A program made the translations under genes and the position numbers. DNA of 35,462 bases, from positions 1 through 35,462 of the forward strand of contig JANYGA010000246.1 of assembly GCA_025359485.1 (NCBI GenBank). Direction: 5' to 3'. Under the pieces are notes generated by a model, which did no database searches, had not been told where the DNA came from, and saw nothing but the letters and a program-made list of their open reading frames with translations. Positions 6,355-22,819 of this stretch are shown here, one piece after another. The stretch is from Rhodospirillales bacterium (GTDB taxonomy: Bacteria > Vulcanimicrobiota > Vulcanimicrobiia > Vulcanimicrobiales > Vulcanimicrobiaceae). Numbering within the stretch: the stretch's first letter is position 1; each line of letters begins with the position of its first letter.

Positions 6355-7398
6355 ATGCGCGTTCTCGTGACCGGCGGTGCCGGCTATATCGGCGTCGTCT
6401 TGTGCCGTCAGCTCATCGAAGCGGGGCACGAACCGGTCGTCTACGATCGTCTCTTTTGGGGTCGCAAACCGCTCGCCGGTCTCGATGTCGAGATCGTCTC
6501 GGGCGATCTGCGCGCGTTCGACGTCGCGACGCTGGACGGGATCGACGCGGTTTGCCATCTCTCGGGTCTCTCGAACGATCCGACGGCTGAGTATAACACT
6601 GAAGCGAATTGGCAGATGAATGCCGTCGCGACCGAACGTCTCGTCGTGGCCTGCAAGGCTCGTGGAATCGAGCGATTCACGTTCGCATCGAGTGCGTCGA
6701 TCTACGACAGCGAAGGGACGACGCACGATGGTTCGCGCTCGCCCGCGATGTGCGATGAAACGACCGTCGTCGCACCGCGCGGAGCGTACTCGCTCTCGAA
6801 AAAATATGCCGAAGATGTGATCCTTCGCGAAACAAACGATCGCTTCGCGCCGGTAATTTTCCGGCAGGGAACGGTTTTCGGTTACAGCCCGCGCATGCGA
6901 TTCGATCTCGTCGTCAATACGTTTATCAAGGACGCGATTGTGAGACGTCGCCTCTTCCTCCATGGTGGTGGCTGGATGTGGCGACCACTCGTCGACGTCG
7001 AAGACGTTGCGGCCGTGCACGTGCTCGCGCTCTCATCACCCCTCGAAAAATTGCGCGGGCAGATATTCAACGTGCTGGAAGAAAACTACCAAGTTCGGCA
7101 GCTCGCGATGCTCGTGGCGGGCTCGCTCTCGCTCGTCGATCCGCCGATCCGCGTCGAACTCGAAGGGGCGCCGCAACCGACGCTCGTGCGGAATTATCGC
7201 ATGAGCAACGCGAAGCTCAGCGCGGCGCTCGGCTTCACACCGTCGCGAACGGTTCTCGAATCGATCGAACATATGCTCACGAAAGTGCCGCTCGATCGTA
7301 CGGACGATTTTGGAGATCCGAAATATTACAATATTCGTTGGATGTCGTTGCTCGAAGAATCGCACGTGGAACAACGTGCGTACGCGTCGATCTACTGA
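6355..7398 (+). CDS. NAD-dependent sugar epimerase/dehydratase (extended SDR)
   Basis: A 347-residue extended short-chain dehydrogenase acting on a nucleotide sugar. The N-terminal Rossmann motif is 'VLVTGGAGYIGVVL' (G-x-x-G-x-x-G). 'VCHLSGLSNDP' and 'FASSASIYD' follow, and the catalytic pair is in 'YSLSKKYAE' (Y-x3-K). The C-terminus 'FGDPKYYNIRWMSLLEE' is an extension shared by a subgroup of polysaccharide-cluster epimerases. It begins 10 nt after argB and its stop overlaps by 3 nt (7396-7398 against 7392-7394 within a 7-nt window) the end of the convergent methyltransferase. The exact reaction (C4 epimerisation, dehydration or reduction) is not decidable; the sugar-cluster context supports nucleotide-sugar processing. 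Confidence 0.88.
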   Translation: MRVLVTGGAGYIGVVLCRQLIEAGHEPVVYDRLFWGRKPLAGLDVEIVSGDLRAFDVATLDGIDAVCHLSGLSNDPTAEYNTEANWQMNAVATERLVVACKARGIERFTFASSASIYDSEGTTHDGSRSPAMCDETTVVAPRGAYSLSKKYAEDVILRETNDRFAPVIFRQGTVFGYSPRMRFDLVVNTFIKDAIVRRRLFLHGGGWMWRPLVDVEDVAAVHVLALSSPLEKLRGQIFNVLEENYQVRQLAMLVAGSLSLVDPPIRVELEGAPQPTLVRNYRMSNAKLSAALGFTPSRTVLESIEHMLTKVPLDRTDDFGDPKYYNIRWMSLLEESHVEQRAYASIY

Positions 7399-8660
7399 GC
7401 GTTCGCCGGCGCGCGGTAGAGACGGAGCGTCGGATTGGGGAGACGATACCTGCGTTCGATCGCATATGCGATCGCGGCATCGGAGTGGATCGATGCGATA
7501 ACGATCGGATATGACGGTGTGTCGCGCAGAGCCGTCGGTGGCACGATTTCGGTGCTTCCTACGTGCATGCCGTGCCGTTGCGGCGATGAATCGACGATCG
7601 CGACGACATTCTTCTTCGCGATGACGGTATCGCACATCAGTTTCATTGCGAGCTGGCCCGCACCCCAGAGGATGACGTTCGGCTCCGCGGCCAGCGCATC
7701 GCGAAGATCGCGATCGATTCGAGCCATTCGTTCGCGCGAGGCGACGACATAGCGCTTTGCTGCCCGAACGAGCGATTCGTCGCGTAAGAACGTTGTGGGC
7801 TTGGATTTCTGCGCACGTTTGCGCCAGAGTCCGTAAATCGCCGGGTATTCGTCGACGGGCGAACAGTACACGATCTTCGAACCGGCATCGATCTCTTCGA
7901 AGCCGCTTGCAGCCATCAGTTGCCGCAACACGCCGAGTGAGAAGTGGTTGATGTGCTCGGTATTAAAATCGTGAAACGGAGCGACGAGAAACCGATCGTA
8001 GCGCTCGGCATCGGGGACTTCAACGTACGCGAGGCCGTCGTTGCGTAAGAGAGCGTGGAGCGATGCGATCGCGCCGCGAACATCGGTGATATGTTCGAGC
8101 GTGTGTGAGAGGGTGACGGCATCGAAGGTTCCGATGTCGCTCGGTGGTGAGGTAAACGACCCGGTAACCGCCCTGGCGCCATTTTCGCCGATCGCTCTCG
8201 CGACCGCATCGGGCGATGGATCGAGGCCGATGGTTTCCGTGAAGCCACGCTCGCGCAGGAAGCGTAGGAACGTGCCGCTCGAGCATCCGGCATCGAGGAC
8301 GCGCGCGCTCGGTACGAGGCGTTCGTAAAGGTAATCTGCGACGCCCTCGAGTCGCTCGGCGTCCCAATGCGAATCGGTCGCTTGGGCGACCGATTCGTCA
8401 GGAGCCCCGGCCGCTCGCGAAAGATCGGTCGTGACGTTCGAAGCGTATTTCGAATGCGACTCGTAATCCGCATCGAGTTGCATTTGCGTCGTCCCTTGAT
8501 CGGCGTAGACGAACCCGCACCGCGTGCAGGCTACCACATCGTATCCGTTCGGAACGTGCAATTCGCGCGGCGCGACGAACTCTTGATGGTGCAACGCTTC
8601 CGCGTCATAGGAACCGCAGATCGGACACGGCCGCAGGAGCCGCGCGCTTGGGGCAATCAC
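7392..8660 (-). CDS. SAM-dependent sugar C-methyltransferase-like protein with zinc ribbon
   Basis: The domain order matches NDP-hexose C-methyltransferases. An N-terminal zinc-binding segment ('CPICGS' ... 'VACTRCGFVYAD') is followed by a class I SAM-binding domain ('VLDAGCSSGTFLRFL', 'TLEHITDV') and a C-terminal Rossmann-like Methyltransf_14-type domain ('VILWGAGQLAMKLM', 'PIVIASIHSDAAIAYAI'). Such enzymes add a methyl branch to keto-deoxysugars. The ORF is open up to an ATG at 8741, but that ATG overlaps the divergent gene's start, and the 27 codons between have a low GC third position (about 46%). I therefore favour the GTG at 8660 (422 residues), ten codons before the first Cys. The stop is TAG at 7392-7394, convergent with the SDR. 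It could supply a methyl branch to the dideoxysugar made by the rfbFGH genes. Confidence 0.85.
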   Translation of the reverse strand: MIAPSARLLRPCPICGSYDAEALHHQEFVAPRELHVPNGYDVVACTRCGFVYADQGTTQMQLDADYESHSKYASNVTTDLSRAAGAPDESVAQATDSHWDAERLEGVADYLYERLVPSARVLDAGCSSGTFLRFLRERGFTETIGLDPSPDAVARAIGENGARAVTGSFTSPPSDIGTFDAVTLSHTLEHITDVRGAIASLHALLRNDGLAYVEVPDAERYDRFLVAPFHDFNTEHINHFSLGVLRQLMAASGFEEIDAGSKIVYCSPVDEYPAIYGLWRKRAQKSKPTTFLRDESLVRAAKRYVVASRERMARIDRDLRDALAAEPNVILWGAGQLAMKLMCDTVIAKKNVVAIVDSSPQRHGMHVGSTEIVPPTALRDTPSYPIVIASIHSDAAIAYAIERRYRLPNPTLRLYRAPANAQ

Positions 8661-8739
8661 GTCGCGGTTTTTTGGCCGTCGACTCGCGATTCCTAGGGTT
8701 TGAGGATGAGACGGTGCGTCAAATCGTAATTGGACGCTC

Positions 8740-9687
8740 ATGCAAACCGTGGTTCGGACCGGCGTCACGTACGTACCGCTCGAGCGTTGCCGCGTATGCG
8801 GTTCTGGCCGATCGTCCATGTGCGAGTGGCTTTCGAACGTGCCCGATCTCGAATTTCCGGGCGATCGGTTCGCGTTACTGCGTTGTGCGACGTGCGGCTT
8901 GATCGCAACGGACCCATATCCGAGGGACGACACGATCTCGACCATCTATGCCACGGGTGATTCGTCGGATTACGAATTTCCAGAAGCCGGTCTCCTCGCC
9001 AAGGTTAAAGAACGGCTCGCTCGTCGGAGGATACGCACGATCGCCCGACTCGCGGGAATCCGACCGAAAGCGGTACTCGATTACGGCACGGGTGCCGGAC
9101 GCTATGCAGCCGCCGCAGCGCGCGCATTTCCGGATGCCGACGTCGTCGGGACGGATTTCGCACACGAACCACCGCCAGGCTCGTATTTCGAAGGCGCGAC
9201 CGCCAATCTTCGATATCGTGAGTACGCGACGTTGCTCGAAGGCGGTGCTCGGTTCGATTTAATTTTTGCGAGACACGTGCTCGAACACGTCGCCGATCCG
9301 ATCGCGATCGTGCGTGATTGGATCGGCATGTTATCGCCGGACGGCGTGCTTTACGTCGAGGTCCCGAACACGACGTCCGTAACCGCGCGACTTCTCAGGG
9401 AGCGATGGCCGTTACTTTACTTGCCGAAGCACCTCTCGCATTTCACGCGTGAGACGCTTGCGAAGATACTTGCTGCAGCCGATGGGACCGCGACGATAGC
9501 GTCGTGTGAGATGCCGATGATGGGCAATGTGCTCGCGATCGCATCAGGGCGATCGCGCTTCGATCCCCGGTTCCGTATTCCGGGAATGCTCGCGCATCCG
9601 GTGCAGATCGTTCTCGAAAGCCTCGGTCGGCAAGGCACGTGTTTGTATGCGTTGGTGCGAGGCGCCGGCGACGACGAAGAGCGATAA
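8740..9687 (+). CDS. Class I SAM methyltransferase with N-terminal zinc ribbon
   Basis: A 315-residue methyltransferase. The N-terminus has a four-cysteine zinc-ribbon-like segment ('CRVCGSG' ... 'LLRCATCGLIATDPYP'), followed by the SAM-binding motif 'VLDYGTGAGRYAAAAA' (about residues 107-122), 'VVGTDFAHEPP', and the post-I motif 'DLIFARHVLEHVADP' with 'GVLYVEVPN'. This is the layout of Methyltransf_23-type enzymes common in O-antigen clusters. Unlike its divergent neighbour it lacks the C-terminal Methyltransf_14 domain and ends in a shorter region that may contact a membrane or acceptor ('LAHPVQIVLESLG'). The start is ATG at 8740. It lies 72 nt before rfbF on the same strand and probably heads that transcription unit. 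It may O- or C-methylate a sugar of the glycan; the target is unknown. Confidence 0.85.
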   Translation: MQTVVRTGVTYVPLERCRVCGSGRSSMCEWLSNVPDLEFPGDRFALLRCATCGLIATDPYPRDDTISTIYATGDSSDYEFPEAGLLAKVKERLARRRIRTIARLAGIRPKAVLDYGTGAGRYAAAAARAFPDADVVGTDFAHEPPPGSYFEGATANLRYREYATLLEGGARFDLIFARHVLEHVADPIAIVRDWIGMLSPDGVLYVEVPNTTSVTARLLRERWPLLYLPKHLSHFTRETLAKILAAADGTATIASCEMPMMGNVLAIASGRSRFDPRFRIPGMLAHPVQIVLESLGRQGTCLYALVRGAGDDEER

Positions 9688-9759: not shown

Positions 9760-10542
9760 GTGAAAGTTGTTATCCTGGCAGGCGGTCTGGGAACGCGGCT
9801 CGCCGAGGAAACGAGCCTCCGGCCGAAGCCGATGGTGGAGGTCGGCGGAAAGCCCATCCTCTGGCATCTTATGAACTTATATTCGCGAGCGGGCTTCGAC
9901 GAGTTCGTGATTGCGCTCGGCTACAAACAGGAAGTCGTCAAGGAATACTTTCACTCGTTTTATTCCGTCAATAACGATCTCTCCGTGGATCTCGCGACCG
10001 GCGAGACGACGATCCGGCATCGCATGCCCGAACGATGGAAAGTCCACCTCATCGATACGGGGCTCGCGACACAGACGGGCGGCCGCATCAAACGCGTGCG
10101 TGAGATCGTCGGCGATGAAACGTTTATGTGCACGTACGGCGACGGCGTCGCGTCGATCGACGTTAACGACGTCCTTCGATTCCATCGCGAACGCGGTCGC
10201 GAGGCGACGTTGACCGCCGTGCGTCCGCCAGCGCGTTTCGGTGCGCTCGATATTCGCGACGACCGCGTCGCCGAATTTATCGAGAAGCCGCAGGCGAGTG
10301 AAGGCTGGATCAACGGAGGATTCTTCGTGTTCGAACCGTCGATCTTCGATCGCATCGACGGCGATGCGACGTTACTCGAACACGAACCGCTCGCCACGCT
10401 CGCGCGCGAGAACCAACTCTCGTGCTACAAACACGAGGGGTTCTGGCAACCGATGGACACCGCCCGCGATAAGCGATTTCTCGAAGATCTTTGGGCGTCC
10501 GGCAACGCGCCGTGGGTACGGACCGATGTCGTTCTGGCGTGA
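9760..10542 (+). CDS. rfbF: Glucose-1-phosphate cytidylyltransferase
   Basis: A 260-residue nucleotidyltransferase that makes CDP-glucose from CTP and glucose 1-phosphate, the entry step to CDP-3,6-dideoxyhexoses. The N-terminus 'MKVVILAGGLGTRLAEETSLRPKPMVEVGGKPILWHLM' is the cytidylyltransferase signature (GGxGTR plus the RPKPM(V/I) motif that separates RfbF from thymidylyltransferases). 'GYKQEVVKEYF' and 'CTYGDGVASID' (metal-binding Asp) follow, then 'INGGFFVFEPSIFDRI'. Family length is about 257, so it is complete. The start is a GTG at 9760. Its last 17 nt overlap the start of rfbG, consistent with one operon, rfbF-rfbG-rfbH. Confidence 0.95.
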   Translation: MKVVILAGGLGTRLAEETSLRPKPMVEVGGKPILWHLMNLYSRAGFDEFVIALGYKQEVVKEYFHSFYSVNNDLSVDLATGETTIRHRMPERWKVHLIDTGLATQTGGRIKRVREIVGDETFMCTYGDGVASIDVNDVLRFHRERGREATLTAVRPPARFGALDIRDDRVAEFIEKPQASEGWINGGFFVFEPSIFDRIDGDATLLEHEPLATLARENQLSCYKHEGFWQPMDTARDKRFLEDLWASGNAPWVRTDVVLA

Positions 10543-11527
10543 ACGTCGCGTCCTCGTAACGGGGGCGACGGGCATCGTTGGAAGCCACCTCGCCCGCGCG
10601 TTACTCGACCGTGAAGCGTTCGTGGTCGCGCAAGTTCGTGACGACGATCCGCAGTCGTCGTTCTACCGCGACGCGACGGCTGTCCGGTGCTCGATCGTTC
10701 GTGGCGAATTGCAACGCTACGAAGATTGCGCGCGAGCCATCAACGCGCACGACGTCGAGATCGTCTTCCATCTCGGCGCGCAGACGCTGGTCGGAACGGC
10801 CGTTCGCGACCCGCTCGAAACCTTCGAGAGCAACGTGCGCGGAACGTACAACCTCCTCGAGGCGGCTCGGCGTATGGGCGGTCTCGTGAAAGCGTTCGTG
10901 GTCGCATCGAGCGATAAGGCCTACGGGGATTCGCCGATTCTCCCCTACACCGAGGACATGCCGCTCGCCGGGCGCCATCCGTACGATGTTTCGAAAAGCT
11001 GCACGGATCTGCTCGCGACGTGCTACGCGACGACGTACGGGCTTCCCGTTACGATCGCGCGATGCGGAAATATTTACGGTGCGGGCGATCTCAATTGGAG
11101 TCGCATCGTGCCCGGTACGATTCGTAGCTTGCTCTTGGGCGAGAGACCGGTGTTGCGGAGTAACGGCACGAGTATTCGTGACTATATCTACGTTGCCGAC
11201 GTCGTCGACGCGTATCTCGCGCTCGCTGAAGCGATCGAAAAGCCCGGGGTGCGCGGCGAAGCGTTCAACTTTAGTCCCGAGTCGCGCGTCGACGTTTTCG
11301 AGATCGTGCGAACGCTCGCGCGATTGATGGCGTCCGATCTCGAGCCCGTCGTGCTCGATATTGCGACGCACGAAATCAAAGATCAGACGCTCGATGCGAG
11401 TAAAGCGCGTACGGTGCTGGGATGGCGACCGACGTGGACGCTCGACGCGGGATTACGCGAAACGATTCCTTGGTATCGCACCATTCTCCAACAGGACGGA
11501 CAATCGCTCGACCATGCTATTCGATAG
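10526..11527 (+). CDS. rfbG: CDP-glucose 4,6-dehydratase
   Basis: A 333-residue extended SDR enzyme converting CDP-glucose to CDP-4-keto-6-deoxyglucose. The start is ATG at 10526 ('[26 protein letters not shown]'), 17 nt inside rfbF; the longer ORF in the track is read-through of the rfbF region in another frame. The NAD-binding motif [10 protein letters not shown] is near residue 13. '[36 protein letters not shown]' is highly characteristic of RfbG, and '[10 protein letters not shown]' with 'YDVSKSC' supplies the Y-x3-K catalytic pair. The C-terminal '[20 protein letters not shown]' fits the family. It is slightly shorter than the roughly 355-residue norm but has all core motifs. Its stop overlaps rfbH by 14 nt. 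Confidence 0.94.
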
Positions 11528-12875
11528 AAGCTCGTCGGCCGAAGCCGTCTCCCTCCGCGCGGAAGTGCTCGAGAAAACGCGCGCGTATTTCGATGCGGCG
11601 TACGGTCACCGCGCGTTCGTTCCCGGCGAAGACGCCACGCCCGTCTCAGGGCGTGTCTTCGACGAACGCGATATGATGTCGCTCGTCGATAGTTCGCTCG
11701 ATTTTTGGCTGACGACCGGTCGTTTTGCCGAGCGATTCGAACGCGAATTCGCGCGTTGGTACGGGATCCGCGAATGCGTGCTCGTCAATTCGGGATCGAG
11801 TGCGAACCTCGTCGCGCTCGCCGCGTTGACCTCGCCCGAGCACGAAGAACGTCGTCTCGAGCCGGGCGACGAAGTCATTACCGCCGCCGCGGGATTTCCG
11901 ACGACGGTCAATCCCATCGTGCAGCTCGGCGCGATTCCGGTTTTCATCGACAGCGAACTCACGACGTTCAATGCCGATCTCTCACAGCTCGAGAATGCGC
12001 TCTCGCCGAAAACGAAAGCGGTCATGCTCGCCCACACACTCGGTAATCCGTACGATGCCGAACGCGTCCGAACGTTTTGCCGCGAACACGGCCTTTGGAT
12101 GATCGAGGATACGTGCGACGCCGTCGGCGCGACGTGGAACGGCGTTCAAGTCGGAACGTTCGCCGATGCATCGACGGTGAGTTTCTATCCGGCGCATCAC
12201 ATGACGATGGGCGAAGGCGGAGCCGTGATGATGCGCTCGCCAAAATTGCGGAAGATCGTGGAATCGTTTCGTGACTGGGGCCGCGATTGTTGGTGCCAGC
12301 CCGGCAAGGACAACACGTGCGGCAAACGCTTCGACTGGCAACTCGGCGACCTACCACACGGGTACGATCACAAATACACGTATAGCCACATCGGTTATAA
12401 TCTCAAGCTGACCGACATGCAGGCCGCCATTGGCGTCACGCAACTCGAGAAGCTCGACGGCTTTATCGAGCGGCGTCGCCATAATGCGGAACTGCTAACG
12501 CAACTTCTCTCGCATGTCCCGTGGCTCGTCTTGCCGCAAGAATTGCCCGGCGGGAAGAGTTCGTGGTTCGGCTATGCGATCCGTGTCGCAGAAGACGCGC
12601 CGATCGCGCGCAACGCGCTCACGCAGGCGCTCAACGATCGTAAGATCGGGACGCGACTCGTCTTTGCCGGTAATCTCGTGCGCCAACCCGCGTATCGCGA
12701 GATCGAACACCGGATCGTCGGCTCGCTCGCAAATGCGGACACGATCATGAACGACGTCTTCTGGGTCGGCGCGTACCCGGGACTCGACGACGATCAAATC
12801 GCGTACATCGCACGATCGATCGAAGAGATTGGGGCCGCGTCGTCTGCGACCGGACGCGCGCTACCCGTATCGTAG
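11514..12875 (+). CDS. rfbH: CDP-4-keto-6-deoxyglucose 3-dehydrase (E1, RfbH)
   Basis: A 453-residue PMP-dependent, [2Fe-2S] dehydrase that removes the C3 hydroxyl from CDP-4-keto-6-deoxyglucose together with a reductase partner (E3). The start is ATG at 11514 ('[19 protein letters not shown]'). The fold is that of a PLP aspartate aminotransferase, but the usual Schiff-base Lys is a His in '[15 protein letters not shown]', the hallmark of RfbH/E1. Iron-sulfur cysteines are visible as '[11 protein letters not shown]' and '[20 protein letters not shown]' (C-x-C-x7-C). '[16 protein letters not shown]' is the cofactor phosphate site. It overlaps rfbG by 14 nt. No E3-type ferredoxin reductase is in this window, so electrons must come from a partner encoded elsewhere. 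Confidence 0.95.
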
Positions 12876-12895
12876 CGGCGCGGGACACGCGTCGG

Positions 12896-13567
12896 ATCTA
12901 TTTCGATCTCGACGGCGTCCTCGTCGATCCGCGCGTGGGCATCGTCGCATGCGTGAACGAGACGCTCGCCTCGTTCGGATACGCCCGGTTACCGGCGACG
13001 AGAATCGAACGCATCATCGGGCCGCCGTTGCAGGTCGGCTTCGCAAGTCTGCTGGGCGAACTGGGTGGTGACGCGAGCCTCGTCCCCTCGTGCGTTGCCG
13101 ACTATCGCGAGCGCTACGAACGGGTCGCCACGAACGGCGGCACGGTCTTACAGCCCGGTATCGCCAAGATGCTCGCGATCGTGCGACGAGATGCGACGCT
13201 TGCCGTTGCCACGTCGAAGTCGCTTCGCTTCGCAGAGCCGATCGTTTCGGCGCTGGGCATTCGCGACGCATTCGCCGTCGTCTGTGGTCCGACACCCGAC
13301 GTCGATGGCGAGTCGAAGACGGCGACGCTCGCCCGAGCGATCGCTGCGGTCGATGCCGTCGTCGGTTCGACCGACGTTTCGCAGGCGTTCATGATCGGCG
13401 ATCGTCATCACGATATCGAGGCCGCGTTCGCATGCCACGTCACGCCGATTGGCGTGACGTGGGGATTCGGGAGCGAGCACGAACTGCGCACGGCAGGGGC
13501 GACTGCGATTGCCCACGACTGCGGATCGTTGACGGCTTTGCTCGTACCGAACACGAGCCGCCGGTGA
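12896..13567 (+). CDS. HAD-family phosphatase, start codon not identifiable
   Basis: A haloacid dehalogenase-type phosphatase of about 220 residues. Motif I 'IYFDLDGVLVD' holds the nucleophile Asp; motif II is 'LAVATSKS', motif III is Lys in 'GESKTATLARAI', and motif IV is 'FMIGDRHHDIEAAFA'. The helical cap between motifs I and II is of the phosphoglycolate-phosphatase type. The first ATG/GTG/TTG of this frame is GTG at 12935, which lies after motif I and would remove the catalytic Asp. The frame is open upstream but contains no ATG, GTG, TTG or CTG as far back as I checked (about 12770). The coordinate given simply marks the residue before motif I; only ATC codons (12869, 12896) are available. 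An uncorrected indel is the simplest explanation. Its 3' end overlaps the next gene by GTGA. It could dephosphorylate a sugar intermediate of this locus. Confidence 0.75.
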   Translation: MYFDLDGVLVDPRVGIVACVNETLASFGYARLPATRIERIIGPPLQVGFASLLGELGGDASLVPSCVADYRERYERVATNGGTVLQPGIAKMLAIVRRDATLAVATSKSLRFAEPIVSALGIRDAFAVVCGPTPDVDGESKTATLARAIAAVDAVVGSTDVSQAFMIGDRHHDIEAAFACHVTPIGVTWGFGSEHELRTAGATAIAHDCGSLTALLVPNTSRR

Positions 13568-14592
13568 CTCGACTGCAACGCGATCTCGACGAGATTCTCG
13601 AGCGGTCGCGCGACGATTTCGAAACGCTGCGCGGTGCGCGGCTTTACGTTACGGGCGGCACCGGCTTCGTCGGTTCGTGGATGCTCGAAGCGTTCGTATG
13701 GGCGAACGATCGGCTCGCACTCGGCGCTCGCGCGTGCGTCCTCACGCGTGATGCCGACGCTTTTACACGACGCGTTCCGCACGTCGGCGGCGATGCATCC
13801 ATTACGTTCGTTTCCGGCGATGTACGTGACGCCGCGCGCGTCGATGGGACTTTTGATGCAATCATTCATGCGGCGACGCCGGCGAGTGCGCGAATAAACG
13901 CCGAGACGCCGAAGATCATGGTCGATACGATCGTCGACGGCATGCGTCATACGCTCGACCTGGCCGAACGCAGTGGTGCGATTCCCGTCTTACTTACGAG
14001 CTCGGGTGCGGTGTACGGGCGCCAACCACTCGACCGGCTCAGGGTTGACGAAACGTACGCGGGAGCGCCCGATCAGCTCGATCCGGCAAATGCCTATCAT
14101 GAGGCGAAGCGCCTATCCGAATTGCAACTCGCGATCGGCGCGCGCGTTTCGGGCATCGGCGCGAAAGTCGCCCGACTCTTCGCCTTCGTCGGACCGTATT
14201 TGCCGCTCGATACTCATTTCGCGATCGGCAACTTCATGCGCGACGCCATGAACGCTGCGACGATTGAGATTCTGGGCGATGGATCGCCGCTGCGCTCGTA
14301 TCTCTACGCGGGCGATATGACTTCATGGCTGTGGCGCGTGCTCGCGCGTGGCGAAAGCGGACGCGCGTACAACGTCGGTTCGGAACGCATCGTCAGCATC
14401 GCGGAAACGGCGCGCGTCGTCGCATCTTGTGTCGAGCCCCAGGGCTCCATCGCGGTGCGTGGCGTGCCGACGGGCGCCGCACCCGAGCGGTACGTGCCTT
14501 CGACGCATCGGGCGCGGGAAGAGCTCGGGCTCGCCGAGTGGACGTCGCTCGAGGAATCCATTGCGCGAACGATCGCGTTCGCGCGCGCCTAG
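13564..14592 (+). CDS. NAD(P)-dependent sugar reductase/epimerase (extended SDR)
   Basis: A 342-residue extended SDR protein. The start is GTG at 13564, sharing GTGA with the stop of the HAD gene. The protein has a 25-residue leader helix and then 'ARLYVTGGTGFVGSWMLEAF' (NAD-binding), 'DAIIHAATPAS', 'LLTSSGAVYGRQP' and the catalytic 'YHEAKRLSE' (Y-x3-K). 'LPLDTHFAIGNFMRDAM' and 'GDGSPLRSYLYAGDMTSWLW' are substrate-domain segments seen in sugar-nucleotide decarboxylase/reductase-like members. Following rfbFGH, a plausible role is the final C4 or side-chain keto reduction of a CDP-3,6-dideoxy-4-ulose, analogous to abequose/paratose synthases or YerF; this is inference. Its TAG stop shares the palindrome CTAG with the stop of the convergent GT2 gene. 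Confidence 0.85.
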   Translation: MTRLQRDLDEILERSRDDFETLRGARLYVTGGTGFVGSWMLEAFVWANDRLALGARACVLTRDADAFTRRVPHVGGDASITFVSGDVRDAARVDGTFDAIIHAATPASARINAETPKIMVDTIVDGMRHTLDLAERSGAIPVLLTSSGAVYGRQPLDRLRVDETYAGAPDQLDPANAYHEAKRLSELQLAIGARVSGIGAKVARLFAFVGPYLPLDTHFAIGNFMRDAMNAATIEILGDGSPLRSYLYAGDMTSWLWRVLARGESGRAYNVGSERIVSIAETARVVASCVEPQGSIAVRGVPTGAAPERYVPSTHRAREELGLAEWTSLEESIARTIAFARA

Positions 14593-15602
14593 CGCACCCG
14601 GTCAAGCGTCTCGGCGTCGCGGCGAACGATGCGTTGCGCGATCGAACGTTGTTCGCCGTCGACGACCGGATCGAGACCGCGTGCGTCGCGCACGACGAAC
14701 GTCGGTCGCCCGCGAACTTCTTCGAAAATCATGCCGACGTATTCGCTCATCAATCCCAATAGCATGAAGAGGAACCCGAAGAGCAAGAGATTGAGCGTCA
14801 CGAGCGTTCCGAAGCCGGCGAAGGGAACGCCGAAGAAAATGGCCCGAGTTGCATACACCGCGATCCCGATGAATGAGATGGCGGCGAAGGTCGCGCCCGC
14901 GAGCGGGATGACTTTGAGCGGCATGTACGAGCTCGAAAGGATTCCGCGGACCGCAAAATTTGCGGTGCGCAACGTATTGAATGCCGTCGTGCCGCCAAAT
15001 CGGGCCGGCCGTTCGTGCTCGATCCCGACCGATTTTCCGCCAACCCACGTCCACATCGAACGCACCATACGGTTGCGTTCGGGCATCGCGTTAAACGCGT
15101 CGACGAGTTTGCGATCGACGAGGCGAAAGTCGCTCGCGTTGCGCGGCACGGGATGATCGCTGATCCGATTGATCAGCCAGTAAAATATCTGCGCTGCGAT
15201 GCGTCGGAAGAGACTGTTATCCGTGCGCTTGGTGACGATTTGGTAGACGTTCTCGTAGCCGAGTTCCCACTGTTCGATGAAACGGGGAATGAGCTCGGGC
15301 GGATCCTGAAGATCGGATGCCATGATGACGCATGCGTCGCCGCGTACTTGCGCGAGGCCGGCGCACATGCCGCCTTCCATATCGAAGTTGCGCAGCAAAC
15401 GCACGACTTTGAAACGGTGGTCGGCATCGTGGATCGCCGATAGGCGCGCGTACGTGTCGTCGGCGGATCCGTTTTCAACGACGATTGCCTCGAAATCATA
15501 CCGATCGGCGTACGCGTCGAAAACGATCGCGAGACGGCGCGCCAATTCATCGACGCACTTGCCTTCGTTGTACGCAGGCGTCACGATCGAGATGAGCTTC
15601 AC
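14589..15602 (-). CDS. GT2 glycosyltransferase, GtrB/ArnC-like, membrane-anchored
   Basis: A 337-residue family-2 glycosyltransferase. The catalytic GT-A domain begins 'ISIVTPAYNEGKCVDELARRL' and has 'AIVVENGSADDT' and the metal-binding region 'IMASDLQDPPELIPRFIEQW'. Two transmembrane helices follow near residues 235-285 ('AAISFIGIAVYATRAIFFGV', 'LNLLLFGFLFMLLGLMSEYVGMI'), ending in 'EEVRGRPTFVVRD'. This architecture is that of GtrB/ArnC/DPM1 enzymes, which load a sugar onto undecaprenyl phosphate at the cytoplasmic face. The start is GTG at 15602, overlapping the stop of the ThDP enzyme by GTGA. Co-translation with the NeuB-like and ThDP enzymes suggests that it transfers the sugar those enzymes help to make. 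Confidence 0.9.
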   Translation of the reverse strand: MKLISIVTPAYNEGKCVDELARRLAIVFDAYADRYDFEAIVVENGSADDTYARLSAIHDADHRFKVVRLLRNFDMEGGMCAGLAQVRGDACVIMASDLQDPPELIPRFIEQWELGYENVYQIVTKRTDNSLFRRIAAQIFYWLINRISDHPVPRNASDFRLVDRKLVDAFNAMPERNRMVRSMWTWVGGKSVGIEHERPARFGGTTAFNTLRTANFAVRGILSSSYMPLKVIPLAGATFAAISFIGIAVYATRAIFFGVPFAGFGTLVTLNLLLFGFLFMLLGLMSEYVGMIFEEVRGRPTFVVRDARGLDPVVDGEQRSIAQRIVRRDAETLDRVR

Positions 15603-17422
15603 GCGCGCGCTTCCACTTTGCGAAGGTATCGCAAGACGTCGTCGGCGACGTCGGGCGCGAGATCGGGCGTCATCAGATGGAGCGGATTAGATTCCATACT
15701 TCCCGACTCGGTTACGCGACTCGCGATCTTTGGAAAGTACATCTGCTCGGGATCGATCGGCACGATAAACCCCTGTGGCCCCGGTGCGTTCATGCGCGCG
15801 TTGAAATCTTCGGATGCGAAAGCGTCGGGACCGGCGTCGGTCACGGGAATACCGTACGCCTCGAAAAGCTTGAGCCAATTCGGAAAGCCGAGCCCGGTTT
15901 TAACGTCGCACCCGACGTACGCGCCGCCGAAATAATTTCGCTGCGTCGTTCGGATCGACGCATAACCCTCGTTCGAGAAAATGAAAATTTTGAGGTTGAG
16001 TGCGTTGATTGCGACCGTGCCGAGTTCTTGCGCGTTTTGAATGAAGCCCCCGTCGCCTTCGACCACGATCGTGCGTTTGCTCGGCCACGCGAGTGCCGCA
16101 CCGATCGCGCCGGAAAGGCCGTAGCCCATCGATGCGAGCCCTTTATCCGTGACGATCAGCTGGCCGCTTTTCTGCGCGATCGTTTGCAGCGCGGTCGAAT
16201 TCGCGCCGCCGCTACTGCACGGCACCAGAATATCGTTTGTTGAGGCGAGCGCCGAGAGTTCGCTGTAAAAGTCGAACGGATTGACGTAACCCGAACGGAC
16301 CGCATTTGCCGGATCGTTGAGCGGCAACGTGTCGCGCACGTGCGCGCAAAACGAACGCCACTTCGAATAATCGCCGTACTCGCGTTTCGCGAGTGCGCGC
16401 AAGAACGTATTGGCATCACCGGCAATCGCGATATCGACGCGCGGATGACCTTTCCGTAATTCCGCTGGATCGATATCGACCTGAACGAGCGTTCCGACGG
16501 GCACGAACTGTTGCCAATTAAAGCCGGTTTGCTGAAGGCCCAAGCGCGTTCCCAGTGCGATAACGAGATCGGCTTGTTGGATCAAGACGTTCGCGAATCG
16601 TTGACCCCACGTGTTCGGACGGCCGGCGTAGATCGCTTCACCCGCATCGATGCGATCGATGCCGTTCCACGTCGTCTGTACCGGCACACCGATGCGACGC
16701 AGATCGGCCATGACGGCGGCCGCCGTCTCGCGTTCGACGCCCGCTCCGATCAGGACGATCGGACGCTCCGCCGATCGCAGTAACTCGGCAACTTCGTCGA
16801 TTCGCTCGAGAGCCGCGCGGCCGGCGTCGGCTCGCGCGGTTTCGACGGAGCGATTGGCGTCCGCATCATCGGGCGCACCGGACATTGCGGCAGGCGCGCC
16901 TTGCGCGTCGAGACAGAATTCCAGGAAAACGGGGCCTTTGCGGCCCCGTCGTCCGCGATCGACGGCAGCGACGAACGCAGATTTGCTCATTGGGCGCTCG
17001 ATACGCTCCGCATGGACGGAGATCGGTCGCACGATGGCCACGCCGTCGATTTCCTGAATTCCACGCTGCCGCAAACCGTCCGTTGCGATATCGGTGCTTT
17101 TGACTTGACCGCCGATAACGAGAAGCTCGCGACTTTCGAGGAATGCCCCGCCGATCGCCGTGACGATATTGGTCAGGCCCGGCCCGGCGGTCACGAGCGC
17201 AAAGGCTCGGCCCGGTGGCTCGACGGCATTGAAGTACTCCGCCGCGATACCGACGGCGACTTCGTGGACGAATGGAACGCACGTAAACCTACTGCGCGCG
17301 CCATTGAGGAAGTGCATGATGTTGCCGCCGGCAACGAAGAAGCAGTGCGTGTAACCGAGTTCGACGAGCCAATCCATGACCTCGTCGGCGTGACGCTGCG
17401 GTGCGGTCAAATCCGCCGTCAC
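15599..17422 (-). CDS. ThDP-dependent acetolactate synthase-like enzyme of a sugar pathway
   Basis: A 607-residue thiamine-diphosphate enzyme. The PYR domain has the activating Glu in 'CVPFVHEVAVGIAAEYFNAV' and 'ALVTAGPGLTNIVTAIGGAFLESRELLVIGGQ'. A central Rossmann domain follows ('RPIVLIGAGVERETAAAVM'), and the PP domain has 'VEGDGGFIQNAQELGTVAINALNLKIFIFSNEGYASIRTTQ', where GDG and SNEGY mark the Mg/diphosphate site. The start chosen is GTG at 17422, in GTGA overlap with the NeuB-like gene; the 719-residue ORF in the track is an upstream extension into that gene. Next to rfbFGH it recalls YerE, which transfers an acetaldehyde unit from pyruvate to CDP-4-keto-3,6-dideoxyglucose in yersiniose synthesis. 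True acetolactate synthase is less likely because no ilvN or ilvC is nearby. Confidence 0.88.
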   Translation of the reverse strand: MTADLTAPQRHADEVMDWLVELGYTHCFFVAGGNIMHFLNGARSRFTCVPFVHEVAVGIAAEYFNAVEPPGRAFALVTAGPGLTNIVTAIGGAFLESRELLVIGGQVKSTDIATDGLRQRGIQEIDGVAIVRPISVHAERIERPMSKSAFVAAVDRGRRGRKGPVFLEFCLDAQGAPAAMSGAPDDADANRSVETARADAGRAALERIDEVAELLRSAERPIVLIGAGVERETAAAVMADLRRIGVPVQTTWNGIDRIDAGEAIYAGRPNTWGQRFANVLIQQADLVIALGTRLGLQQTGFNWQQFVPVGTLVQVDIDPAELRKGHPRVDIAIAGDANTFLRALAKREYGDYSKWRSFCAHVRDTLPLNDPANAVRSGYVNPFDFYSELSALASTNDILVPCSSGGANSTALQTIAQKSGQLIVTDKGLASMGYGLSGAIGAALAWPSKRTIVVEGDGGFIQNAQELGTVAINALNLKIFIFSNEGYASIRTTQRNYFGGAYVGCDVKTGLGFPNWLKLFEAYGIPVTDAGPDAFASEDFNARMNAPGPQGFIVPIDPEQMYFPKIASRVTESGSMESNPLHLMTPDLAPDVADDVLRYLRKVEARA

Positions 17423-18543
17423 TTGACTTCGACCGAGCCTACCCCGTTCGTATGGTGCGGGAGGCCGCGCATCGTGATGCGCGCGCGCATCGAGGGATTG
17501 CGCGAATACGGCGTATCGACGTCGTCGAGCATGACGGGTTCGGATCGCTTGATCGGCTGCGCGAGGATCTCGCCATCGATCAATTCGCGACAGGAGAGCT
17601 GACCTTGGATCAGCGGGATCGCCATGAAGTAATCGCCCTCGCGAAGTTTGTGTCCGGCGGGGAAATCGGCGTTCGCATAAACTCCGCGCAAAAGAGCCTC
17701 GAGATATTCGACCTCGGCTGGCCCGGGAATGCGTTTCGCAAGTCCGGGGGCTCCGCACATTTCGCGCGCTTTATTGTACGCGCGGAACCACGTGTCGCAT
17801 TGATCTGGAAGCGTGCAGTAGGGCGAGACGGGAATGCCGTCGGCTTCGATGTCGATATGGCGTTCGAACGTGCGTGCACCCTTCGCATACGCAATCATCA
17901 CCGACGAACTCCAATCGTTGTGCTCGTGTGTCGAAAGCCCGACGGTGATGTTGGGATAGCGGTGCTTGAGAAAGTCGATTTGGTTGAGTTCGAGATCGCT
18001 GTCCTCCGAAGGATACAGCGAGACGCAGTGATTGAGTGCCAGCGGAATCGAACGATTTTCGAAAAACGTCACGAGATCATCCATGTCCTTGAGCGACGAT
18101 CCGCCGGTCGATGCGATAACCGGTTTTTTCGTCGTCGCGATCTTTTCGATCAAAACCCAATCGTTGATATCCGAGCTCGCCAACTTGATGATCGGGAGGT
18201 TGAGTCGAACGCAAAAATCGACGGACTCTTCGTCGAACGGCGTCGCCATCGGAATACAGCCGGATTTGCGAATGTGCTCGACGAGCGTCGCGAGGTCGGC
18301 TCGGGACATTTTCGTGTCCATCGTCTTTTTGACGTATCGAATATCGGTCCGTTTCTGCGCCTCGGGATGGACGAAATTGTCGACGTCCCGAAATTGCAGC
18401 TTGATCGCCGCGCGAACGTTGTTGTACCGCACGACGCGCGAAAAATCGGTCGCAATTTGCATCCCGCGCTCGAGTCGTCCCCAGTGGTTATTGGCCATCT
18501 CGAGGACGAAGAGTTCGTCGAAAATATCGCGGTTGATTGACAA
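17419..18543 (-). CDS. NeuB/SpsE-family sialic-acid-synthase-like protein
   Basis: A 374-residue TIM-barrel PEP-condensing enzyme of the NeuB family with a C-terminal SAF/antifreeze-like region. The N-terminus 'LFVLEMANNHWGRLERGMQIA' matches the E-x-x-x-N-H motif. 'AIKLQFRDVDNFV', 'IIKLASSDINDWVLIEKIA' and 'PVIASTGGSSLKDMDDLV' are barrel strands, and 'TVGLSTHEHND' with 'FERHIDIEADGIPVSPY' carry the two metal-binding His. The SAF-like tail lies near 'AGHKLREGDYFMAIPLIQG'. The start is TTG at 18543, supported by GAGGA nine nt upstream (18553-18557). Known homologues join PEP to N-acetylmannosamine or related 6-deoxy sugars. No NeuA (CMP transferase) or NeuC (epimerase) is present, so the acceptor sugar is unknown. 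It overlaps the ThDP gene by GTGA. Confidence 0.88.
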   Translation of the reverse strand: MSINRDIFDELFVLEMANNHWGRLERGMQIATDFSRVVRYNNVRAAIKLQFRDVDNFVHPEAQKRTDIRYVKKTMDTKMSRADLATLVEHIRKSGCIPMATPFDEESVDFCVRLNLPIIKLASSDINDWVLIEKIATTKKPVIASTGGSSLKDMDDLVTFFENRSIPLALNHCVSLYPSEDSDLELNQIDFLKHRYPNITVGLSTHEHNDWSSSVMIAYAKGARTFERHIDIEADGIPVSPYCTLPDQCDTWFRAYNKAREMCGAPGLAKRIPGPAEVEYLEALLRGVYANADFPAGHKLREGDYFMAIPLIQGQLSCRELIDGEILAQPIKRSEPVMLDDVDTPYSRNPSMRARITMRGLPHHTNGVGSVEVK

Positions 18544-18928: not shown

Positions 18929-20740
18929 ATGCGCATCGACCAAACCACGATCCGCGAGATTCTCGCGCGAACCGACATCGGCACCTTCATCGGCACGTAC
19001 GTCCAGCTGCGTAAACGCGGCCGCGATCTCGTGGGGCTGTGTCCCTTTCACGGCGAGAAGTCGCCGTCGTTTCACGTTCATCCCGATAGCGGCTACTTCA
19101 AATGCTTCGGCTGCCAGAAGGGCGGCGACGTCATCAAGTTCGTGATGGAACTCGAAGGCTTGCCGTTCCCCGAAGCCGCGCGTGTCCTCGCTCGGCGCGC
19201 GGGGGTCGAACTCGCCGAAGAAGATCCCGCAGCGGCGCGCGTCCGCGGCGAGAAAGAGCAGATCCACGCGGTGAACGAACTCGCCGCGTCGTTTTACCAC
19301 CGCACGCTCCGACTGGGAGCCGGAGCCGAAAACGCACGCGCCTACGTCGCAAAGCGCGGCCTGCGTCAAGAAACCGTCGATGCGTTCAAGATCGGCTACG
19401 CGCCCGACACGTGGAACGCACTCGTCGCCGAACTCCAGAGCAACGGCATGGATCTCGCGATTGCGGAGAAGGCCTACCTCATCAAAGCACGCTCCGGCGG
19501 CAACGGGTACTACGATTTCTATCGCGATCGCTTGATGATCCCGACCTATGCGACAACGGGCGAATGCATCGCCTTCGGTGGCCGTTCGCTCGATGGTCAA
19601 GAACCGAAGTATCTCAACACGGGCGCGACTCCCGTCTATACCAAAGGCCGCGGTCTCTATGCCCTCAACGTCGCTCGTCGCTCCGCGGTCGATCGCGAAG
19701 CGCTCGTCGTCGTCGAAGGCTACCTCGACTGCATCGCATTACACGAAGCCGGATTCACGAACGCCGTCGCGTCGCTCGGTACGGCGTTCACGCCCGAACA
19801 AGCCACCGAGCTGCGCAAATATTCCGAACGCATCTTCGTCTGCTTCGACGCCGACACGGCGGGTAGCAACGCGACCGCGAAATCGATCGACACGCTCGGC
19901 GCGGCCGGTTGCGTCGCGTTCATCGTGCAACTTCCCCCGGGCGAAGACCCCGACACATTCGTGCGCACCAACGGCGCGCCAGCATTCCAGAAAAAACTCG
20001 ACGACGCGTTACCTTGGATTCAATTCAAACTCGATCGCGAGATCTCGACCATTCTCGCGAAGCGCTTACCGCCCGCGCAAGCGGCGCAGACCGCCGAGAC
20101 GCTCGTCTCCGCGTTGCCGCGCGTCGAGTGGGATAAGTGGCGCGTCTACGTGGCGGGCAAACTCGGTCTCGCAATCGACGACCTGCGCGCCAACCGCTTC
20201 GTGAACAATCCCGCCAATTTCGCGCCGCGCATCGGTGGGGGCGCGGGCATGGTGCGGCACGTCGCGCCGACGGCCGAACCACCCTCGGTCGATCGCGAGA
20301 TTCTCGCCGCACTCGTCGACGAGCCCGCGCTCGTCGCAGAGTTCGCGCCGCTCATTCCGAGCGACGTTTTTACCGACGAGCGCTATCGCGAAATCTACCG
20401 CTCGCTCTGCGCGGCTGCGGCAACGCTCGTGACCGCGAGCGACGTCTACGCTGTCCTGGGCGACGATCGCGATGCCGTCGAACGCGTGGTCGCGCTACAG
20501 AAGACGGACCGGTCGTCGCAGATTCGCTTCCCGGACTCACCCGCACGGCGCGCATATCTCGAACGCGTCGTCGAACGCCTCACCGAAGACGACCTGGAGC
20601 GCCGATTCCGCGAACTCGACGCTCGCATCGATGCGGCATTCGCATCGGGCGCGGCGATTTCGACCGAAGATCGCGACGAACACCGTAAGCTTTCAACGGA
20701 CCGGGAATCTCGAAAACGAAAAAGGCTGGGCACGCGCTAA
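18929..20740 (+). CDS. dnaG: DNA primase
   Basis: A 603-residue bacterial primase that synthesises RNA primers at the replication fork with DnaB. The N-terminal CHC2 zinc-binding domain is 'LCPFHGEKSPSFHVHPDSGYFKCFGCQKGGD' (Cys38, His41, Cys59, Cys62). The catalytic core contains 'FGGRSLDGQEPKYLNTGATPVYTKGRGLYAL' and the TOPRIM acidic motifs 'VVVEGYLDCIALHEAGF' and 'IFVCFDADTAGSNAT'. The C-terminal region from about residue 450 is the helicase-interacting helical domain and diverges from model species. The start is ATG at 18929. It is followed within 40 nt by a toxin-antitoxin cassette and then rpoD; dnaG-rpoD adjacency is common in bacteria. Confidence 0.96.
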   Translation: MRIDQTTIREILARTDIGTFIGTYVQLRKRGRDLVGLCPFHGEKSPSFHVHPDSGYFKCFGCQKGGDVIKFVMELEGLPFPEAARVLARRAGVELAEEDPAAARVRGEKEQIHAVNELAASFYHRTLRLGAGAENARAYVAKRGLRQETVDAFKIGYAPDTWNALVAELQSNGMDLAIAEKAYLIKARSGGNGYYDFYRDRLMIPTYATTGECIAFGGRSLDGQEPKYLNTGATPVYTKGRGLYALNVARRSAVDREALVVVEGYLDCIALHEAGFTNAVASLGTAFTPEQATELRKYSERIFVCFDADTAGSNATAKSIDTLGAAGCVAFIVQLPPGEDPDTFVRTNGAPAFQKKLDDALPWIQFKLDREISTILAKRLPPAQAAQTAETLVSALPRVEWDKWRVYVAGKLGLAIDDLRANRFVNNPANFAPRIGGGAGMVRHVAPTAEPPSVDREILAALVDEPALVAEFAPLIPSDVFTDERYREIYRSLCAAAATLVTASDVYAVLGDDRDAVERVVALQKTDRSSQIRFPDSPARRAYLERVVERLTEDDLERRFRELDARIDAAFASGAAISTEDRDEHRKLSTDRESRKRKRLGTR

Positions 20741-20770
20741 TTGACCCCACGTGGGGGCGCGCGCTATAAA
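20741..20770 (+). promoter_or_regulatory. Predicted sigma-70 promoter of the toxin-antitoxin cassette with CCCCACGTGGGG operator
   Basis: TTGACC (20741-20746) and TATAAA (20765-20770) are separated by 18 nt. A perfect 12-bp palindrome CCCCACGTGGGG (20745-20756) sits across the end of the -35 and the spacer, where a ribbon-helix-helix antitoxin would block RNA polymerase. The predicted +1 falls at about 20777, which is the A of the antitoxin ATG, so the mRNA would be leaderless. The promoter begins immediately after the dnaG stop. Confidence 0.65.
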
Positions 20771-20776
20771 GATGGC

Positions 20777-21019
20777 ATGGCCGATCTCAAAGTTCGTAAT
20801 CTCGACGACGTTCTCGTCGATGCTCTTCGTAGACGTGCCAAGCAGCATGGCGTATCGCTTGAAGAAGAAGCACGCCGCACGCTCGCTGAATCTTTCGAAG
20901 CGCGGCGCGAAAATTTTTTCAGGCGAGCAGCCGCAATTCGATCGGCGATTGGCGAACCTGGCGACCCGAGCCTCGACAGCGCCCTGATTATTCGTGAAGA
21001 ACGCGATGCCTGGGGCTGA
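20777..21019 (+). CDS. FitA-like ribbon-helix-helix antitoxin
   Basis: An 80-residue antitoxin. The N-terminal 'MADLKVRNLDDVLVDALRRRAKQHGVSLEEEARRTLAESF' is the FitA/Arc-type ribbon-helix-helix DNA-binding fold: one beta strand, then two helices. The C-terminal 'DSALIIREERDAWG' matches the family's toxin-binding tail, which normally ends D-S-x-x-(L/I)-I-R-E-x-R-D. I prefer ATG at 20777 over the TTG at 20741, because the latter lies on the -35 box and adds residues foreign to the family. It overlaps the PIN toxin gene by 14 nt. It probably represses its own promoter at the palindrome just upstream, alone and with the toxin. Confidence 0.88.
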   Translation: MADLKVRNLDDVLVDALRRRAKQHGVSLEEEARRTLAESFEARRENFFRRAAAIRSAIGEPGDPSLDSALIIREERDAWG

Positions 21020-21449
21020 GCGCCTCGCACTCGTGATGCTCGATGCCTCGGTTGCGGTCCGTTCCATTATTCCCGAGGTTGGCACGGAGCGTGCAATCGA
21101 AGTAATGCAGCTCGCGCGCTTTTTGATCGCACCGCGCCTTCTCGCCACCGAGTGTGCCGCAGCGATTCGTCGAAAAGTCGTCGGAGGCGAACTTACGCTC
21201 GAGCTCGCCGATCGGGCGATCTCCGCTCTCTCGTCGTCGTTTTCTGAAAACATTATTCGACTTGCAGAAGACGAGACGTTCGTTGCTTCGGCATTCGCAA
21301 TCGCGATCGCGATCGCACATAAGCTTCCGGATTGCATGTACCTCGCGCTCGCAGAGCGCGAGAGCGCTCCGCTGGCTACCGCCGACGAACGATTGGCGCG
21401 TGTTGCCGAGCGTCGCGGGATCACCGTCCTCTTCGTTGCAAACGACTGA
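21006..21449 (+). CDS. VapC-like PIN-domain toxin
   Basis: A 147-residue PIN-domain ribonuclease. The acidic active-site residues are visible in order: Asp in 'VMLDASVAVRSII', Glu in 'LLATECAAAIRRKV', Asp in 'HKLPDCMYLALAE' and Asp in 'LATADERLARVAE'. VapC toxins cleave RNA (tRNA or rRNA sites in characterised cases); the target here is unknown. The start may be ATG at 21006 or GTG at 20994; either overlaps the antitoxin gene, as is normal for the pair. It is followed by 166 nt with no recognisable feature before rpoD. Intact motifs suggest an active toxin. Confidence 0.88.
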   Translation: MPGAERLALVMLDASVAVRSIIPEVGTERAIEVMQLARFLIAPRLLATECAAAIRRKVVGGELTLELADRAISALSSSFSENIIRLAEDETFVASAFAIAIAIAHKLPDCMYLALAERESAPLATADERLARVAERRGITVLFVAND

Positions 21450-21615
21450 GCCGCGCGTCGCCGCGAAACGCAACCATCGAGCGTCCGTCGCAGTCTTCAC
21501 ACCGCCCGACAAAAGACATGACCGTTCAAGCGCGGTGGAATTTCACGTCGGGTTGCAGAAGAGCGTCGGCTCGCGCCCATGAGGCGCACGTCGAAAGGGG
21601 GTGAGGTCAAAACGT

Positions 21616-22791
21616 ATGGCACGAAAGAAAGCGGCGAATAATGGCTCGAACGGCGAGGCGGCGGCACCGGCATTGCCACTCGAAGAGCAGATCAAGAAGC
21701 TCATCGAAAAAGGCAAAAAGCGTCAGTCGCTGACGTATGAAGAAATCAATGCCGTCTTCGATAATGTCGAAGAAGTCGATCCCGAGCGCATCGACGCGCT
21801 CTTCGAAGAGATCGCGACGCTGGGCATCGAGGTCGTCGAAGAAGCGAAAGACGAGAAGCCCGAGGAAAAAGAGGGCGGCGCCGAAGCGGAAGTTCCCGCA
21901 GGCCTCTCCCTCGACGATCCCGTTCGGATGTACCTCAAAGAGATCGGCCGCGTGCCGCTCCTCTCGATGGACGAAGAAAAAACGCTCGCGATGTCGATCG
22001 AAGCGGGCGAACTCGAAGGCCAGAAAAACGGTCAGGCGCAGGGCCGCATCGTCGAAGCGGGCTTCGAATCCAAACGCAAACTCACCGAAGCGAATCTTCG
22101 TCTCGTCGTCTCGATCGCGAAGAAGTACGTCGGCCGCGGCATGCTCTTTCTCGACCTCATTCAAGAGGGCAACCTCGGTCTGATCCGCGCCGTCGAAAAA
22201 TTCGATTATCGCAAGGGCTATAAATTCTCGACGTACGCGACGTGGTGGATCCGTCAGGCGATCACGCGCGCGCTCGCCGATCAGGCCCGCACGATCCGCA
22301 TCCCCGTGCACATGGTCGAGACGATCAATCGTCTCATCAAGATTTCGCGTCAGCTCTTGCAAGAACTCGGCCGCGACCCCACGGTCGAAGAGATCGCGCA
22401 CGAGATGGGGCTCACGCCCGAGAAGGTTCGCGAAGTCATCAAGATTTCGCAGGAGCCGATCTCGCTCGAGACGCCGATCGGCGAGGAAGAAGATTCGCAT
22501 CTCGGCGATTTCATCGAGGATCAGGAAGCGATCGCGCCCGCGGAAGCGGCCTCGGTCATGCTGCTCAAAGAGAAGATGGCCGACGTTCTCAAGAACTTAA
22601 CCGAACGCGAACGCAAGGTGCTCGTCCTCCGGTTCGGTCTCGAAGACGGCCATCAACGCACGCTCGAAGAAGTCGGCCAAGAGTTCGGCGTCACGCGCGA
22701 ACGCATCCGACAGATCGAAGCGAAGGCGTTGCGCAAACTCCGCCATCCCTCGCGCGGCAAAGCGCTCAAAGATTATTGGTCGAGCGAATAA
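21616..22791 (+). CDS. rpoD: RNA polymerase primary sigma factor (RpoD/SigA)
   Basis: A 391-residue group 1 sigma-70 factor. A compact region 1.1 ('[27 protein letters not shown]') is followed by an acidic linker and region 1.2 ('[25 protein letters not shown]'). Region 2 includes '[30 protein letters not shown]' (-10 melting and recognition), region 3 '[25 protein letters not shown]', and region 4 '[33 protein letters not shown]' (the -35 helix-turn-helix). These near-consensus regions imply recognition of TTGACA/TATAAT-like promoters, in line with those seen before the toxin-antitoxin cassette and the tRNA. I chose ATG at 21616 (MARKK), with a GTGAGGT purine-rich site about 9 nt upstream, over GTG at 21601. 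Confidence 0.96.
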
Positions 22792-22819
22792 CGCGACGAG
22801 CTGCCGTTTTTCGTTTCCA

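Follow-up and report, generated by a model that had tools for sequence, protein, structure and literature searches.

A NeuB-family synthase paired with a YerE-like carboligase in CDP-dideoxysugar loci: predicted donor supply for sugars with long branches

What does a relative of the sialic acid synthases do in overlap with the gene of a thiamine diphosphate (ThDP)-dependent enzyme and opposite a set of genes for CDP-dideoxysugar synthesis? This arrangement lies on contig JANYGA010000246.1 (GenBank assembly GCA_025359485.1, Vulcanimicrobiota), which we analysed over its full 35,462 nt (the window) and which belongs to a draft genome (G000; 2.95 Mb, 296 contigs). Two convergent operons meet there. 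The plus-strand operon (9760–14592) encodes RfbF, RfbG, RfbH, a HAD-family phosphatase and a short-chain dehydrogenase/reductase (SDR), and the minus-strand operon (18543–14589) encodes NeuB, the ThDP enzyme and a family 2 glycosyltransferase (GT2), with 4-base overlaps between NeuB and ThDP and between ThDP and GT2. Judged from sequence comparisons, we consider the probable product of the locus to be a CDP-activated 3,6-dideoxyhexose of the caryophyllose/erwiniose class, with a long, hydroxylated branch at C4, and NeuB to be the probable supplier of the donor for the ThDP enzyme. All genes that the original prediction had named at 9760–18543 are present, except that the sugar C-methyltransferase-like gene (8741–7392) lies just outside this interval. 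Their combination, which recurs in dozens of species, is real and not a product of chance.

The ThDP enzyme (15599–17422, minus strand, GTG start) comprises the three TPP domains PF02776, PF00205 and PF02775, and its residues H53 E54 (the catalytic Glu) and G456 D457 G458 (the GDG motif) are invariant in the alignment. Its best solved relative was 8rph (244 bits, approximately 31% identity), followed by acetohydroxyacid synthase (AHAS) I with 171 bits. Structure 8rph is JanthE, a YerE-like enzyme (PMC12188165), the only one with a solved structure that we found and the sole characterised reference available for the YerE-like grouping; it has a CDG motif where the window protein has GDG. A YerE-like profile built from ten relatives gave 878 bits for the window protein, and 616–906 bits for YerE-like proteins (534 for one further copy); no AHAS protein in the Gammaproteobacteria survey exceeded 451 bits. 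The ten IlvB outgroup sequences fell on one side, with an SH-aLRT support of 97, in a tree of 103 ThDP proteins in which the program flagged long branches. The first NCBIfam matches of the enzyme are acetolactate synthases, as would be expected of a stray enzyme of branched amino acid synthesis, but all of these matches are far below their cut-offs (209 bits against 538 for the AHAS equivalog TIGR00118), and G000 holds three other full-length ThDP candidates, which were taken as IlvB-type outgroup rows. With the profile gap and the tree added, such a role is exceedingly improbable, and scores and tree rule out acetolactate synthase identity. The YerE-like nature proposed in the original prediction thus withstood the comparison with genuine IlvB. 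By these measures the window ThDP enzyme is YerE-like and not an AHAS, and its predicted reaction is the transfer of an acyl anion, derived from a 2-oxo acid, to a ketone.

Which 2-oxo acid that is would decide the product. YerE uses pyruvate, whereas ErwE does not accept it and favours 4-hydroxy-2-oxo acids; MMAR_2332, the enzyme for caryophyllose, behaves similarly to ErwE (PMC12247030). JanthE is reported to accept 4-hydroxy-2-oxovalerate (PMC12188165). The expected product of a NeuB reaction is a 4-hydroxy-2-oxo acid, the type preferred by ErwE, so that NeuB would fit donor supply.

Scanned once, a set of approximately 85,000 species genomes yielded at least 508 relatives of the window NeuB. 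The counts given here come from the best 80 loci, which span Acidobacteria, Verrucomicrobia, Proteobacteria, metagenome-assembled genomes named as Actinobacteria, Planctomycetes, Elusimicrobia, Bacteroidetes, Myxococcota and others; Acidocella sp. KAb 2-4 (L072) is a cultured carrier. Unsupervised clustering of their open reading frames (ORFs) yielded as commonest neighbours ThDP (70 of 80), GT2 (56), RfbF (46), RfbG (43) and RfbH (41), then SDR (37), HAD (27), FkbM methyltransferase (24) and the C-methyltransferase-like protein (21), which is almost exactly the gene list of the original prediction. NeuB lies next to ThDP or one gene away from it; the 68 pairs analysed were on the same strand in 65 cases and separated by less than 100 bases in 42, with HAD as the single intervening ORF in seven. 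Thirty-eight loci extended for 8 kb or more to each side of NeuB, and within 10 kb these contained ThDP in 37, RfbF in 28, RfbG in 26 and His-type RfbH in 26 cases (27 before removal of L053, whose matches are Lys-type aminotransferases). The sole locus of this set without ThDP, L023, belongs to a genome with a ThDP gene beside RfbG and RfbH elsewhere (L164), and RfbH is encoded elsewhere in 9 of 11 genomes whose loci lack it nearby. The base rate of RfbH was 18 of 149 genomes in the phylum of the window and 9 of 274 in the class Gammaproteobacteria. Fisher tests, whose values are indicative since the genomes are related, gave P = 1.6e-4 and 9.7e-5 for NeuB with RfbH, 9e-5 and 2e-5 for NeuB with the YerE-like ThDP enzyme, and 2.6e-12 for the latter with RfbH in the same phylum. 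As a control, 45 of the 274 Gammaproteobacteria-class genomes carried canonical PseI/NeuB-type synthases, and none of these 45 had RfbH or a YerE-like ThDP enzyme. The NeuB–ThDP pair thus occurs mainly in the company of CDP-dideoxysugar genes, contrary to the condition under which the original prediction would have been refuted. In L212 (1002–4463, minus strand), the ThDP enzyme is fused to an FkbM methyltransferase and a short-chain dehydrogenase in one protein of 1153 residues, whose domains predict that a single chain would catalyse carboligation, reduction and methylation.

The window NeuB (17419–18543, minus strand, TTG start behind GAGGAAC; PF03102) belongs to a 3g8r-like subfamily, with 214 bits to 3g8r as compared to 82 bits to meningococcal NeuB. 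It shares the fold and the phosphoenolpyruvate (PEP) and metal residues with the sialic and pseudaminic acid synthases and with 3g8r of C. violaceum. In an alignment of 83 subfamily members and meningococcal NeuB, E15, K48, Q50, T101, K120, S123, S204, H206, E227 and H229 (E25, K53, Q55, T110, K129, S132, S213, H215, E234 and H236 in meningococcal numbering) were kept in 83 of 83. The meningococcal positions N74, E134, N184 and D247 were altered, and I or V replaced R314 in 81 of 83. The roles of these residues in binding PEP and metal, and of R314 in contacting the N-acyl group, are those that we take from the meningococcal NeuB structures; the 4ipi chain has Ala at position 314, consistent with an R314A variant. 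As the PEP and metal residues are kept and R314 is replaced, PEP chemistry should be intact and N-acyl-sugar recognition should not. The protein also misses both the sialate and pseudaminate equivalogs (104 bits against 400 for TIGR03569 and 109 against 340 for TIGR03586), and no NeuA gene lies nearby. A NeuA-like CMP-synthetase gene occurred in just one of the 80 NeuB loci, as a weak match, and G000 has a single, very weak CTP_transf_3 match (27 bits) on another contig. Cut-offs, R314 replacement and absence of a nearby NeuA rule out that this NeuB is a sialic or pseudaminic acid synthase. Relatives of approximately 500 residues were found in L015 (9783–11303), L153 (10961–12484) and L250 (9351–10880); that of L153 bears a C-terminal cupin domain (Pfam), and that of L015 looks alike.

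A second survey was centred on the ThDP gene and covered 22 genomes, 16 from the phylum of the window and 6 Gammaproteobacteria. The partner in the ThDP cluster was this NeuB in seven, an HpcH/HpaI-type aldolase in eight, another NeuB-family protein in two and a DmpG aldolase with a DmpF-type acetaldehyde dehydrogenase in one; four clusters, all from one genus, had no recognised partner. At least three independent HpcH changes are forced by the tree of ThDP proteins, and no locus with this NeuB contained an HpcH-type gene. Neither NeuB nor an aldolase was found in nine RfbH loci without ThDP, some of which are short. In L136, a more divergent ThDP locus, an HMGL-like protein is encoded between ThDP and RfbH. 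The DmpG/DmpF-type pair (4-hydroxy-2-oxovalerate aldolase and acetaldehyde dehydrogenase) stands in L215 together with RfbF, RfbG, a His-type dehydratase, GtrA, GT2 and SDR, in the place that NeuB has in the window. The ThDP enzyme of L215 is 56% identical to JanthE, which reportedly accepts 4-hydroxy-2-oxovalerate, and this locus therefore serves as a positive control; its donor would most simply be 4-hydroxy-2-oxopentanoate from acetaldehyde and pyruvate. All of the exchanged partners (NeuB, HpcH/HpaI-type and DmpFG-type) are predicted to form 4-hydroxy-2-oxo acids. Because NeuB adjoins ThDP, is exchanged for aldolases and almost never has NeuA nearby, its most likely role is to produce the donor that the ThDP enzyme uses. 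Several loci (L068, L078, L081, L082; L141, L206, L209, L213) encode beside ThDP a cyclase resembling 3-dehydroquinate synthase, as a rule with a short-chain SDR adjacent to it. This cyclase recurs with NeuB as well as with HpcH-type partners, and one can conceive of a carbocyclic branch or donor.

The ThDP enzyme might instead be a plain YerE that takes pyruvate, the published donor of YerE (PMC12247030). In that case the branch would have two carbons, as in yersiniose, and the NeuB product would be a ulosonic acid that enters the same glycan separately. L144–L146 and L161, which have RfbFGH, SDR and ThDP and neither NeuB nor an aldolase, agree with this. However, NeuB is coupled to ThDP rather than to a CMP pathway, for which the single weak NeuA-like match and the 27-bit match in G000 leave little room, and beside ThDP it is swapped for aldolases. 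Moreover, the partnerless ThDP enzymes form a separate branch of the tree, except L164, whose genome has NeuB elsewhere. We regard a plain YerE as unlikely. Mere decarboxylation of the NeuB product to an aldehyde, which would give a chain-extended deoxyaldose uncoupled from the CDP sugar, agrees with the overlap of the NeuB and ThDP genes and with decarboxylation being the first half of any such reaction, but is improbable, as it leaves unexplained both the strong linkage to RfbFGH and the kinship to ketone-accepting carboligases. The sequence of steps cannot be read off the gene order alone, and NeuB could also act after ThDP, on an aldehyde that stems from the branched sugar and that it would lengthen. 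Established NeuB chemistry, however, needs a free aldehyde for condensation with PEP, which a branched CDP sugar lacks, and the swap of NeuB for pyruvate-type aldolases fits donor supply better, which makes this order very improbable.

Several observations weigh against NeuB as donor maker in a CDP-dideoxysugar pathway. Most of the loci come from metagenome-assembled genomes. RfbG is below the TIGR02622 equivalog cut-off (199 as compared to 278 bits), though TIGR02622 is its best family. The distant, approximately 500-residue NeuB relative of L250 adjoins HAD and a NeuA-like gene, without RfbH or ThDP, in an ordinary NeuB-HAD-NeuA locus; the wider NeuB subfamily is thus not dedicated to a donor role. 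The HpcH-type proteins score low in Pfam (27–39 bits, one with no match) and have no solved relatives, and we infer their aldolase role itself. The closest relatives of the window ThDP enzyme in the tree are HpcH-associated, and it may share their donor or use another.

In the pathway that we propose with NeuB as donor maker, RfbF, RfbG and RfbH, with a reductase encoded elsewhere, would convert glucose-1-phosphate to CDP-4-keto-3,6-dideoxyglucose. RfbF (9760–10542, plus strand) meets the glucose-1-phosphate cytidylyltransferase equivalog TIGR02623 with 377 bits (cut-off 300). RfbG (10526–11527, plus strand) is CDP-glucose 4,6-dehydratase-like, and its top solved relatives, 1wvg and 1rkx, are CDP-glucose 4,6-dehydratases. 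RfbH (11514–12875, plus strand) matches the CDP-4-keto-6-deoxyglucose 3-dehydrase (E1) family NF011936 with 682 bits (cut-off 423) and 3bcx/3bb8 with approximately 520 bits. It is of the dehydratase type, with His at the position of the pyridoxal phosphate-binding Lys (FYPAHH motif), and carries the iron-sulphur cluster motif C-X57-C-X-C-X7-C, which we take to be the cysteine spacing of E1 dehydrases. No E3 reductase partner of RfbH was seen in the window, and the genome was not searched for one. In L063 (14246), L069 (6744), L213 (12326) and L215 (15253), a second dehydratase class stands in for classical RfbH, with an FYGSHVI motif, His for Lys and no iron-sulphur cysteines.

NeuB would condense PEP with an aldose or aldose phosphate to a 3-deoxy-4-hydroxy-2-oxo acid, and the aldehyde that it uses would set the length of the branch. 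The HAD phosphatase (approximately 12896–13567, plus strand; PF13419) may dephosphorylate this product, and its presence suggests a phosphorylated intermediate. Its true start is uncertain: the catalytic DLDG precedes the first listed start codon, with no ATG, GTG or TTG upstream of it (12875–12935), and a rare start codon or translational coupling to RfbH is likely. The ThDP enzyme would remove CO2 from the NeuB product and add the resulting acyl anion to the C4 ketone of CDP-4-keto-3,6-dideoxyglucose. The extended SDR (13564–14592, plus strand; PF01370) is the candidate ketoreductase of the new branch, methyltransferases may decorate the branched sugar, and the GT2 (14589–15602, minus strand), of GtrB/ArnC type (best solved relative GtrB 5ekp with 208 bits, ArnC 119 bits), would transfer it to undecaprenyl phosphate. 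A GtrA-type membrane protein is encoded in several related loci.

With the yersiniose A system of Yersinia pseudotuberculosis, the window shares the CDP-4-keto-3,6-dideoxyglucose genes, a ThDP carboligase of the same subclass and an SDR as candidate ketoreductase. It differs in that YerE takes pyruvate (PMC12247030), whereas the window couples NeuB to the ThDP gene; this coupling, with its 4-base overlap, sets it apart from the Yersinia route, as had been proposed. The closer parallels are erwiniose (ErwE) and caryophyllose (MMAR_2332), for which YerE-like enzymes use long 4-hydroxy-2-oxo-acid donors and leave a deoxy position beside the former carbonyl, as predicted for the window. Caryophyllose is 3,6-dideoxy-4-C-(1,3,4,5-tetrahydroxyhexyl)-xylo-hexose and thus has a 2'-deoxy branch (PMC5706390). 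Decarboxylative transfer of a 3-deoxy-2-oxo acid would likewise give a branch without a 2'-hydroxyl, and a sugar of the caryophyllose class is the predicted product. The review covering erwiniose and caryophyllose does not mention a NeuB-family donor enzyme for either. The higher-carbon sugar that the original prediction had suggested has gained support and become specific, NeuB most likely supplying the 2-oxo-acid donor; the mechanism with NeuB as donor maker goes beyond that prediction.

The C-methyltransferase-like protein (7392–8741, minus strand) has a Zn-type N-terminus and a weak, sole solved match to TcaB9 (3ndi), and is a recurrent accessory gene of the related loci. It is one of two divergent methyltransferase genes at 7392–9687 (8741–7392 on the minus and 8740–9687 on the plus strand) with starts back to back. 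Genes for GT4 glycosyltransferases, an RmlC-like epimerase and an HD-domain protein flank the locus on one side (278–5499), and those for DnaG, a sigma-70 factor, a cyclophilin, proline dehydrogenase, an Mntp-type pump, a MutS-like domain, an ABC permease and tRNA-Leu on the other (18929–35235). NeuB and ThDP had no matches in plasmid records at E 1e-25 and 1e-50.

We found no description of the NeuB, ThDP and CDP-glucose combination in the searchable literature, which did not reach the primary papers on ErwE, JanthE and the survey of 200 YerE-like enzymes, so that an aldolase or NeuB partner may have been proposed earlier. The cassette probably makes a rare surface sugar with a long carbon side chain in many unrelated bacteria. 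That NeuB and a YerE-like ThDP enzyme constitute a general route, spanning phyla, to branched sugars of higher carbon number, in which a NeuB-made 3-deoxy-ulosonic acid is spliced, minus CO2, onto CDP-4-keto-3,6-dideoxyglucose, we hold to be about evenly balanced. The pairing offers a genetic answer to an open point, the source of the long 2-oxo-acid donor for sugars such as caryophyllose and erwiniose, and leads to the prediction that relatives of sialic acid synthases provide ThDP enzymes with their donors. It also points to a glycan pathway that recurs and is uncharted, given the extent of the NeuB family and the ThDP gene in most of its best loci, and offers new enzyme pairs toward chiral tertiary alcohols. 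If the proposed route is true, hundreds of mostly uncultured species would harbour an unseen class of sugars, C10–C14 monosaccharides whose branches depend on the substrate of NeuB.

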